From: a virus
IMG/VR virus record: IMGVR_UViG_3300045135_002361
Span: 1 to 30,195 of that record
Reading direction: 5' to 3' (one strand)
DNA length: 30,195 bases
Made by a program: the position numbers and the translations under genes. This document shows positions 4,273 through 25,591 of this stretch, one piece after another (position 1 is the first letter of the stretch; every line of letters begins with the position of its first letter). The notes beneath the pieces were generated by a model, which ran no database searches, was not told the origin of the DNA, and saw only the letters and a list, made by a program, of their open reading frames with translations.

Positions 4273-4303
4273 AAAATACAATCATTGCATAAAATACAAT
4301 CAT
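4268..4303. repeat. 18-bp perfect tandem repeat at a gene junction
   Basis: TGCATAAAATACAATCAT occurs twice head to tail (4268-4285 and 4286-4303). On the minus strand one copy carries the stop of the papain-like gene and the other the start of the 71-aa gene, and the intervening copy brings two further in-frame stops. It looks like a recent replication-slippage duplication. Confidence 0.85.
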
Positions 4304-4770
4304 TTAGCAATGGTTTTTATTTTGGCGCCTGTTAAGATCATTCTAACATCTTTTGGGCTCGGATTTGTATTCATATTCTTTATACTAACATTTAAAACAT
4401 TTTTGGTGACGATGTCGCAAATCTCGCTACAGAAATATGCTTTTTTTGATTGTATTTTCTTTCCAAAAAATCCAGACAATAACGCTAAGTAATCATACTT
4501 TGCGCCGATAAGCGCATTTAATTCAGATACAATTTTGCTTTTTGTTTTTGTCTCCACATCCAAAACATAAGTTAAACCTATATTAGATGACATTTGCTTA
4601 GATTTTATTACACCACTGAAAAAGTTAGCTTCATAGTAAATATTATTAATTTTAATTGAAACATGATAAAAAATGTCATTTGTGAAAAACTTTATTATTC
4701 CCGTTGTGTAGAACAAAGGATTTAGAATACTAAATTTTTCGTTATGAAAATTAATATAAATTTTAGTCAA
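4300..4770 (-). CDS. Permuted papain-like (YiiX/NlpC-P60 superfamily) enzyme
   Basis: The 156-residue protein has the circularly permuted papain order: catalytic His first (His36 in FYHVSIKINN), a KYDYLALLSG segment (91-100), then catalytic Cys114 in KAYFCSEICD. Family members are amidases or peptidases acting on peptidoglycan or lipids. No signal peptide is seen. The start is TTG 4770, overlapping the previous stop (TTGACTAA), with no better upstream codon. Its place between a fibre and small membrane proteins fits either a virion-borne wall enzyme or a second lysis enzyme. Confidence 0.7.
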   Translation of the reverse strand: MTKIYINFHNEKFSILNPLFYTTGIIKFFTNDIFYHVSIKINNIYYEANFFSGVIKSKQMSSNIGLTYVLDVETKTKSKIVSELNALIGAKYDYLALLSGFFGKKIQSKKAYFCSEICDIVTKNVLNVSIKNMNTNPSPKDVRMILTGAKIKTIAK

Positions 4771-5017
4771 TTTCTAGCTTGCCTGCCATTTTATACACAA
4801 CACGACTTACTTGTTTAAGTTCTTCAAATACTTTCTTAATATTGTCATCAGTTTGGTTTTTATATTTTTCCATGTCTTTTTGTATTGAGTTTATTTTATT
4901 AAACATCTTGTAGATATAAATCCCCATAATTGCATAAGAAAAGCACAACAAAAAAAATTGTCCGCTGTCGGTTTGAATTAAAGTGTAAAGTGACGGTGCG
5001 TATCGTAGAAGTTCCAT
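4763..5017 (-). CDS. Membrane-anchored coiled-coil protein (84 aa)
   Basis: An N-terminal hydrophobic segment (about residues 19-37, FFLLCFSYAIMGIYIYK) is followed by a charged helix of about 40 residues with heptad spacing (INSIQKDMEKYKN...). This is an inner-membrane spanin or holin-accessory layout. It starts 3 bases after the fibre gene stop and overlaps the papain-like gene by 8 bases. Not recognised as a family; lysis or tail-associated role by context. Confidence 0.5.
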   Translation of the reverse strand: MELLRYAPSLYTLIQTDSGQFFLLCFSYAIMGIYIYKMFNKINSIQKDMEKYKNQTDDNIKKVFEELKQVSRVVYKMAGKLEID

Positions 5018-20333: not shown

Positions 20334-20792
20334 CTATTTATCGACATACAATATCAATTCTTTTTTTACTTTTAATAAATTGGTAATTTGATGAAATGCT
20401 TGTTTGTCTCTGTTTTTTATTCCTATACAACCTCTAGTACCTTCCACGCCACCATCGGGATGTATCAACAATTTTGATCGATTAGTCTTAAATTGAGGTG
20501 TTAATGTAGCCACCCATGCAAACTCTTTGCCTGTATAAGCCTTAACCTTATTAATTATTACAACTTTTCCGTTTTTAATTATAACTTTTCCGTTTTTATC
20601 TTTTTTCTCTTTCATTACTTTCTTTAGCTTGTAGCACTTATCAAGTGTGTACATACCCTTAGGCAAGGCGCCTAGGCCATGCTTGCCGCTTACACACGCA
20701 TATTTTTGATCGTTTATACAAAGAAAACCTAGCTTTGCATTTGCAAATGTGTCTTTAACATTAAACAATAGATCATATTTTAAAGGGGTCAA
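20334..20792 (-). CDS. L,D-transpeptidase-fold (YkuD-like) wall enzyme; probably made as a frameshift fusion
   Basis: Numbered from the only candidate start, TTG 20792 (no Shine-Dalgarno), the 152-residue domain has the LDT signature KLLIHPDGG ... GTRGCIGI with catalytic Cys122 and His111. Family enzymes cut or join peptidoglycan peptides; as a phage lysis gene it may act as an endolysin. The frame is open upstream to 20879 and overlaps the end of the holin gene; a -1 shift on the holin's A10 run enters it and adds a Ser/Thr/Asn-rich linker. A 7-codon internal duplication (NGKVIIK/NGKVVII) lies at 20562-20598. Confidence 0.75.
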   Translation of the reverse strand: MTPLKYDLLFNVKDTFANAKLGFLCINDQKYACVSGKHGLGALPKGMYTLDKCYKLKKVMKEKKDKNGKVIIKNGKVVIINKVKAYTGKEFAWVATLTPQFKTNRSKLLIHPDGGVEGTRGCIGIKNRDKQAFHQITNLLKVKKELILYVDK

Positions 20793-20860
20793 ATTCGACT
20801 GGTTTATATTAGATTCTGTTTTAGTCGTGACTATTTTAGATTCTGTTATGTTTTGGTCAT

Positions 20861-21313
20861 TTACCGTTTTTTTTTTAGTTTATCGATTGAACCACCTAGG
20901 AATATGCGTAAAACATCTTTAAGTCCTAGCGTTGATACAAGTATCCCAACAATACCAAACTCGAACCACCATGCAGTATCATTTAATGCTTTCCATCCTT
21001 GCGCCATTGTTGCCTGTGTAGCAGGAATGAACGTCAGAATCATAATAATGAAAAACCCTACAATAATGAACTCATCAATTAAGGATTCACGTCTATTTTT
21101 TAGTACTTGCATGTCGTAACTCATGTCATTCTCTGCTTGTGTTTCTTGTTGTTTTACCTGTGCTTGCAACTTAGATATCGCCAAATCAATTTTTGCTTGC
21201 GCAATACTAAGCTTACCTTTTTGTTTTATTTCTTTAATTGCCTGATCTTTTTTAACTACGTCGCCAACTGTATTAATAACCCCACCCAGAAGATTTCCTA
21301 AAATATTAAGCAT
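20861..21313 (-). CDS. Three-helix holin (GTA_holin_3TM-like)
   Basis: 150 residues. An amphipathic/hydrophobic N-terminus (LGNLLGGVINTVGDVV) is followed by a charged coiled coil (about 22-70) and two strong membrane helices (EFIIVGFFIIMILTFIPA; WWFEFGIVGILVSTLGLKDV). The pattern matches the 3TM holin family first described for gene transfer agents. The C-terminus is IDKLKKKR, encoded by CTA-A10-run-CGG-TAA. It would permeabilise the inner membrane and time lysis. It overlaps SNase by 8 bases and the LDT frame at its 3' end. Confidence 0.75.
   Translation of the reverse strand: MLNILGNLLGGVINTVGDVVKKDQAIKEIKQKGKLSIAQAKIDLAISKLQAQVKQQETQAENDMSYDMQVLKNRRESLIDEFIIVGFFIIMILTFIPATQATMAQGWKALNDTAWWFEFGIVGILVSTLGLKDVLRIFLGGSIDKLKKKR
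20867..20876 (-). other. A10 slippery run at the holin/LDT overlap
   Basis: On the minus strand the holin reads GAT AAA CTA AAA AAA AAA CGG TAA. The run contains A AAA AAA, a known -1 slippery heptamer, and ten A's are also prone to polymerase slippage. A -1 shift (or one added A) gives AAA ACG GTA AAT GAC and stays open through to the LDT domain. The predicted fusion is about 326 residues. Confidence 0.6.
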
Positions 21314-21671
21314 TTTTTAAAAAACCTTTTTCTTCTAGCATGTCAGCAATAGACACACCATCTATATACACCTTAGCTAAATAACGGCCGAACTTACCTT
21401 TTTTATCTTGTATCGTTTCTACAATAACAGATGCTTTGTTTGCATGTGCTTTCTTAAAAGTTTCTTCGCAAAAATCTTTGGCTTTTAAACCTTTTATTTT
21501 TTCTTCTGGCGTTGTATTCCCACGAAGACTACTTTCGTATGCATCTACGCCAAATAGCCTAATTCTATGCTTAACGCTAATATCAAAACCTAAATCAATT
21601 ATTACATCATAGGTATCTCCATCGACGACATTATATACTTGTGCTTTATATTTATATTCTGTTTTTTCCAT
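21306..21671 (-). CDS. Staphylococcal nuclease-like (SNase) protein
   Basis: The 121-residue protein carries the SNase pattern: VYNVVDGDTYDVIIDLGFD near residue 11, HRIRLFGVDAYES with the catalytic Arg, an acidic Glu after it, and KFGRYLAKVYIDG with the second Arg. The fold cuts DNA or RNA using calcium. No signal peptide, so it probably acts in the cytoplasm, perhaps degrading host DNA or superinfecting DNA. It lies between the small 64-aa gene and the holin in the packaging/lysis operon. Confidence 0.85.
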   Translation of the reverse strand: MEKTEYKYKAQVYNVVDGDTYDVIIDLGFDISVKHRIRLFGVDAYESSLRGNTTPEEKIKGLKAKDFCEETFKKAHANKASVIVETIQDKKGKFGRYLAKVYIDGVSIADMLEEKGFLKNA

Positions 21672-21873: not shown

Positions 21874-22232
21874 GACATTTTACAAATCTTTTTTATTTCA
21901 TTATCGATTGATTTGTGCAAATTTTCACTATTTTTTTTTTCAATATATTTTTTATTTTTTGCTGCTTCTTTTTTAGCATCCTCGTGACCTAAATATACTA
22001 ACTTTTCTTTTTTTTCAATTTCTTTAATTTGTGCCATGGTCAGCTCCCCTTCTAAGCCTCTAGGGTCTGGATAAGTTGTAAATCCATGAACAGCTATATT
22101 ATTGTTACCCATATATCTATATGTATGTGTACTTAGACATTTTACACAATTGGCTCTGTGTTCATCATGCACGCTGAAAAACTTTGTGAATATGTGTTCA
22201 CAAGACCTACACTTAAAATCATAATCAGGCAT
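21867..22232 (-). CDS. FmdB-like zinc-ribbon protein (121 aa)
   Basis: The N-terminus is the classic FmdB/CxxC regulatory zinc ribbon: MPDYDFKCRSCEHIF, then ANCVKCLS, giving two CxxC pairs. A GFTTYPDPRGLEGELTMAQI segment and a charged helical tail follow. Phages often carry this near lysis or packaging genes, sometimes as a regulator. Shine-Dalgarno GAGGAGG lies inside the 3' end of the HTH gene, with an 8-base overlap. Confidence 0.7.
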   Translation of the reverse strand: MPDYDFKCRSCEHIFTKFFSVHDEHRANCVKCLSTHTYRYMGNNNIAVHGFTTYPDPRGLEGELTMAQIKEIEKKEKLVYLGHEDAKKEAAKNKKYIEKKNSENLHKSIDNEIKKICKMSC

Positions 22233-25544: not shown

Positions 25545-25591
25545 TTTTATTCTCCTTTTTTTTTTAAGTTTATTAAAGTCTAAATCATTGT

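Follow-up and report, generated by a model that had tools for sequence, protein, structure and literature searches.

In the gpG/gpGT pair of phage lambda and in dnaX-type recoding, a single start followed by a slip gives two products in a fixed ratio. Slippage on a homopolymer can also take place at the RNA level, as in Citrobacter rodentium tssM1, where an A11 run gives 20–25% slippage and both resulting forms are needed (PMC4256274). A wall enzyme joined to a holin has likewise been described: Clostridium sporogenes carries a natural holin–endolysin fusion of the TpeE holin family, encoded in one frame, and its authors propose that the C-terminus flips across the membrane (PMC9527704). Here we describe a viral gene, found in uncultured phages, that probably yields both a free holin and a fusion of this holin to an L,D-transpeptidase (LDT) domain, through a slip of either RNA polymerase or the ribosome on a run of adenines, and for which we propose a role in lysis. 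It resembles tssM1 and Yersinia tssM3 in being a membrane-protein gene with a long run of A's and with short and C-terminally extended forms; in those genes extra A's open a second frame, as we propose for the holin–LDT gene (PMC4256274). With the Clostridium sporogenes protein it shares a wall enzyme at the holin C-terminus (PMC9527704).

The holin–LDT junction and its two domains

The stretch analysed (the window) comprises all 30,195 nt of IMG/VR record IMGVR_UViG_3300045135_002361 (positions 1–30,195). It is close to full genome size, as a related contig of 31.4 kb (G002) repeats its ends. The features used below are as follows.

21306–21671, minus strand: staphylococcal-nuclease-like endonuclease gene, upstream, overlapping the holin start
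20861–21313, minus strand: holin-type membrane protein, 150 aa (phrog_2524; weak GTA_holin_3TM match)
20867–20876, minus strand: slippery A10 run, holin codons cta AAA AAA AAA cgg
20863–20861, minus strand: holin stop codon TAA
20334–20879, minus strand: open −1 frame, comprising the linker and the LDT domain
20784–20867, minus strand: linker of about 28 residues, TVNDQNITESKIVTTKTESNINQSNLTP, without ATG or GTG
20787–20800, minus strand: palindromic DNA element AGTCGAATTTGACC, within the linker
20790–20792, minus strand: first TTG of the LDT frame, without a Shine-Dalgarno sequence and not kept by relatives
20334–20783, minus strand: L,D-transpeptidase/Tlde1-type domain (Pfam PF10908 and fold match)
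20460–20462, minus strand: predicted catalytic His, the invariant H of HPDG
20427–20429, minus strand: predicted catalytic Cys, the invariant C of TRGCIGI
20336–20334, minus strand: LDT-frame stop codon TAG
4300–4770, minus strand: 156-aa protein with an H...YFCSE pattern recognized by eye and conserved in two relatives

On the minus strand the holin ends GAT AAA CTA AAA AAA AAA CGG TAA. One additional A in the run, or a −1 shift there, leads into ...KLKKKTVNDQNITES... and gives a 326-aa fusion (149 + 177). The first-pass annotation of this DNA had proposed an ending of exactly ten A's, an LDT frame at −1 to the holin that is open from 20879 to 20334, and a fusion of about 326 residues; our recomputation, which places the A10 run at 20876–20867, agrees on all three counts. 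It had also listed a single TTG, at 20792, as the only candidate start; there is a second at 20768, and neither is preceded by a Shine-Dalgarno sequence, as had been said of the first.

The C-terminal part of the open −1 frame matches PF10908 (Tlde1_dom) with an E value of 6.9e-7. Read from the TTG at 20792, the frame scores 30.2 bits, above the curated cut-off of 30.1, and the longer frame scores 29.6 bits, just below it. A YkuD match is found in 17 of 27 relatives. The catalytic His and the (S/T)xGC motif are present (HPDGGVEGTRGCIGI), and their H, T, G and C are invariant in all 27 aligned proteins. A structure model of the LDT alone (pLDDT 87) has as its best structural matches only L,D-transpeptidases or L,D-carboxypeptidases (Csd6, LdtMt1, Pgp2, Tlde1a, Bd1075 and DpaA; Z about 8–10), with Z of 9.2–10.3 to Csd6, LdtMt1, Pgp2 and Tlde1a. 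With this model, Foldseek by itself returned only weak matches. A model of the whole fusion was poor over the holin, and the fold search made from it was meaningless. The LDT-only model and the motifs support the prediction that the C-terminal domain has an L,D-transpeptidase fold.

The assignment of the N-terminal part as a holin leans on weak profile matches. The protein matches phrog_2524 in PHROGs; against GTA_holin_3TM (PF11351) it scores 15.9 bits, below the curated cut-off of 24.8, and 4 of 14 relatives match that profile weakly (best E 0.0019). Endolysin or lysozyme genes are found next to, or close to, relatives of the holin in Pseudomonas phage TC6, Puniceispirillum phage HMO-2011 and a Vibrio tectivirus, and the ACA1 homologue carries a GTA_holin_3TM annotation; in the window the neighbour of the holin is the LDT itself. 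The holin relatives in isolated phages have no A run. The protein had been described as a three-helix holin; we find that two of its segments are clearly transmembrane and that a third, at the N-terminus, is weakly hydrophobic.

Searches of the window with Pfam and PHROGs returned no standard endolysin. The 156-aa protein with the H...YFCSE pattern may be a permuted NlpC/P60-type (YiiX-like) enzyme, and for this reason we do not claim the LDT as the sole wall enzyme. PHROGs names this protein enoyl-CoA hydratase-like. It is preceded by an 84-aa single-transmembrane protein, and the two (4300–5017, minus strand) are a possible second wall-active pair.

Conservation of the run, the frame and the linker

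Scans of IMG/VR that used the LDT, the holin and alignments of each gave 29 distinct junctions, the window included. In all 29 the holin gene closes with a run of nine A's or more: A9 after CTT or GTT, A10 after CTA-type contexts, and A11 in two contigs. The LDT lies in the −1 frame in 27 of the 29. The departures are found only at tree tips, and all deeper lineages hold −1. In the two A11 contigs (L016 and L017) the holin and LDT frames are merged into one, and their LDT protein is identical to that of an A10 relative (L014). In a group of four contigs (the L024 group) the run is one A shorter and the LDT lies in +1; the sister contig (L029) has A10.

The −1 layout persists across considerable divergence. 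It is kept with holins about 40–44% identical, from two subfamilies (L001, L041, L044 and L045), with holins about 35% identical (L084 and L085), and in L087 despite a very different LDT. Among relatives, every Lys codon of the run (76 of 76) is AAA, whereas outside the run these holins use AAA for 82% of their Lys codons; this count carries no formal probability because related sequences share ancestry. The Lys codon just 5′ of the run varies freely. A10 runs are not rare in this AT-rich phage, and two more lie inside window open reading frames (21931–21940 and 25556–25565, minus strand). As a control, these two were compared among relatives and are not conserved, unlike the run in the holin.

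The frame that links the run to the LDT is kept open. In the linkers ahead of any start codon, the LDT frame has no stops in 1,139 codons, while the other two frames have 121 and 168. Over the whole stretch up to the catalytic core there are no stops in 1,525 codons, against 154 and 207, with a pN/pS of 0.46. In the A9 versions a TAA of the −1 frame straddles the first A's and the TAA of the holin frame lies one codon past the run, so that stops on both sides leave the run as the only place where the frame could change.

The conservation of the linker DNA is of a different kind. Across the window (20784–20867) and contigs L001, L029, L041 and L009, the 85 nt 3′ of the run are 92–96% identical between phages with holins 43–46% identical and LDT domains about 67% identical. 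The strict linker has a pN/pS of about 1.08, which is consistent with a lack of protein-level constraint beyond staying open. It contains a palindrome with the consensus ACCrGTCGAAwTCGACCCCTTTA, which unrelated viral contigs carry as well, most of them in a single copy: TTTAAACCnGTCGAAwTCGACnCCTTTA is found in about 30 viral contigs outside the family, usually as one copy each. Two distant members carry the palindrome as a tandem pair away from the holin. (The places recorded are window 20787–20800, minus strand, L206 9673–9727, and L209–L254.) Given these unrelated contigs and off-holin sites, the palindrome seems to be a DNA element in its own right that has come to lie in the linker. Since L084, L085 and L087 have the recoded layout without it, layout and element are independent. 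The ends of IS21 were considered as a source of the palindrome and are not supported, as IstB is present in 1 of 16 palindrome-carrying contigs. The conserved linker block may help phages to swap holin and LDT types.

The comparative check suggested in the first-pass annotation thus comes out in its favour: the 29 distinct junctions all conserve the A run, the open linker and the absence of a usable start (treated below), and no relative has an interrupted run together with an ATG and a Shine-Dalgarno sequence before the LDT. A scan for the junction pattern also returned four contigs outside the family; they have no holin or LDT at the site and are chance matches. An additional scan with the holin profile found no wider relatives. 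A tblastn search of 50,697 phage records with the LDT gave no match and a search in bacteria gave one distant match only, and on these grounds no cultured member is known to us. That a family of uncultured phages conserves a layout read here as recoded is well supported by these comparisons. Among other genes, relatives carry a diaminopimelate-epimerase-like gene (L201 12797–13519), a Cpn60-like gene that directly precedes the holin (L206 14515–15906) and DUF4116 repeat proteins (L206 10979–13112).

Slippage and the other readings of the junction

From the conserved layout we infer that both proteins are produced. One start would serve for both. The majority of translation would end at the TAA one codon past the A run, giving the free holin, and a minority of transcripts would gain an extra A by RNA polymerase slippage on the A9–A11 run; alternatively, a minority of ribosomes would slip by −1 on A AAA AAA. 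Slipping would produce the holin–LDT fusion of about 326 aa, and the run would determine its ratio to the free holin.

The −1 recoding on the run proposed in the first-pass annotation is borne out by conservation; as to mechanism, we lean somewhat towards transcriptional slippage rather than a ribosomal −1 shift, because the run is long and no stimulatory structure is conserved next to it. A homopolymer of at least nine A's, a mark of transcriptional slippage sites, is present in all junctions (A9–A11), and RNA polymerase slippage would also serve the L024 variant. Ribosomal −1 frameshifting is the less probable of the two routes, though a serious one: the heptamer A AAA AAA stands in the holin frame in every version, the default relation is −1 in nearly all junctions, and the stop one codon after the run in nearly all of them is the usual layout of bacterial −1 sites. 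Yet the run exceeds the length that a heptamer needs, and the L024 group would need +1, outside the reach of a −1 site. Neither a conserved stem at the usual distance nor a conserved upstream Shine-Dalgarno sequence accompanies the run: at a spacing of 5–9 nt no stimulatory RNA structure is conserved, the folds being weak and unlike among relatives, and the GG-rich codons 5′ of the run are not conserved among relatives. Some −1 sites function without stimulators, so this lack only lowers the standing of the ribosomal route. Sequence by itself cannot choose between the two.

The change of frame could instead lie in the DNA, with replication slippage turning entire phage genomes from a holin-only to a fusion state and back. 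In keeping with such phase variation, A10 and A11 occur with identical LDT proteins (L014 and L016), and both lengths occur within one assembly, G002 (IMGVR_UViG_3300021379_001448), in which the holin–LDT junction was assembled at both ends (L201 and L202), with A10 and A11; this pair permits either DNA-level variation or library slippage. In addition, six contig ends lie no more than 160 nt from the run, against an expectation of about 1.9 (P ~0.014), a bias that is weak and may come from PCR or assembly. Free switching would, however, mix the three frames, and the lineages hold −1 apart from the exceptions at the tips. We therefore regard phase variation as improbable.

Still less probable, in our view, are two separate genes, with the LDT translated on its own from a weak TTG or non-AUG start coupled to the holin stop. 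The two TTGs of the window (20792 and 20768) lie before the core, one or two start codons are present in several relatives, and L084 and L085 have an ATG inside the linker. But 12 of the 29 distinct junctions have neither ATG, GTG nor TTG ahead of the catalytic core, and in the remaining junctions the start codons are scattered, their positions are not conserved and none has a Shine-Dalgarno sequence. The ATG directly after the holin stop falls in the holin frame, not in the LDT frame, and on this reading nothing would keep the stretch back to the run free of stops. Stand-alone LDT relatives in other phages (L176 and L177) do have their own ATG, so the holin-linked clade appears to have lost its start.

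Lastly, a sequencing artefact, the true gene being one continuous frame with A11, is very improbable: L016 and L017 do show A11 and one frame, and homopolymers are prone to errors, but many independent assemblies from metagenomes agree in the frame relation, with A9 after CTT and with A10 after CTA alike, which does not fit random length errors.

A proposed role in lysis and comparison with known systems

By the charge pattern and the positive-inside rule, both ends of the holin are predicted to be cytoplasmic. The fusion would tie the enzyme to the membrane pore: the holin would tether it to the membrane, and peptidoglycan would probably be reached only once the holin lesion opens. With a cytoplasmic C-terminus, the enzyme would either reach the wall through the lesion or hinder lesion formation as a timer. 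At the lesion, the fused enzyme would trim or exchange stem peptides; alternatively, the bulky tail would modulate hole formation. Known enzymes of this type catalyse tetrapeptide trimming or terminal D-amino-acid exchange (PMC9638812). By analogy, the reaction of the LDT is likely to be the trimming of tetrapeptides or the exchange of their last D-amino acid. Such reactions weaken walls and leave ordinary 4-3 cross-links uncut, so the fusion may act as an aid to an endolysin and not as a substitute for one. In this way the fusion would act in lysis, in which position an L,D-transpeptidase-type wall enzyme is unusual.

Holins are normally thought to work apart from the enzymes they release. 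If our reading is true, fusion by conserved recoding would couple membrane and wall attack, and set their ratio, in a new way. A more specific version, to which we give even chances, is a lysis module that unites lesion formation and wall attack in a single gene: its ratio of free to enzyme-bearing holin would be set by transcriptional slippage on the conserved A run and tuned by the length of the homopolymer, and phages would exchange holin and enzyme types around a conserved linker. The gene is also a clear case of one that annotation pipelines split or truncate.

As far as we have searched, a recoded holin–LDT gene is previously undescribed. In agreement with the first-pass annotation, which knew of no described lysis cassette of this design, the open-access literature searched describes no holin fusion or lysis cassette made by recoding or slippage, and the accessible part of a review on recoding mentions neither holin nor endolysin (PMC5009743).

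The nearest relatives in mechanism and in domain content each differ from it. The lambda gpG/gpGT and dnaX products are tail chaperones or polymerase subunits, and the classic cases are ribosomal shifts. The tssM genes, among which tssM1 is the nearest case with measured slippage, are not lysis genes, and slippage has been demonstrated in them and is here inferred; moreover, the holin–LDT gene adds a complete enzyme domain, unlike tssM (PMC4256274). The Clostridium sporogenes fusion is unrecoded: it has a continuous frame, belongs to another holin family and gives no free holin from its gene (PMC9527704). The Tlde1/DUF2778 L,D-transpeptidases (PF10908), such as Salmonella Tlde1a, share the domain family, the fold and the invariant His and Cys, but Tlde1a is a secreted type VI effector (PMC9638812). 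Stand-alone phage members of the family also occur, namely L176, L177 and gp41 of Burkholderia phage JC1 (PMC9144972). The Tlde1/DUF2778 members have their own start codon, and the LDT hung on the holin appears to have given its start up.
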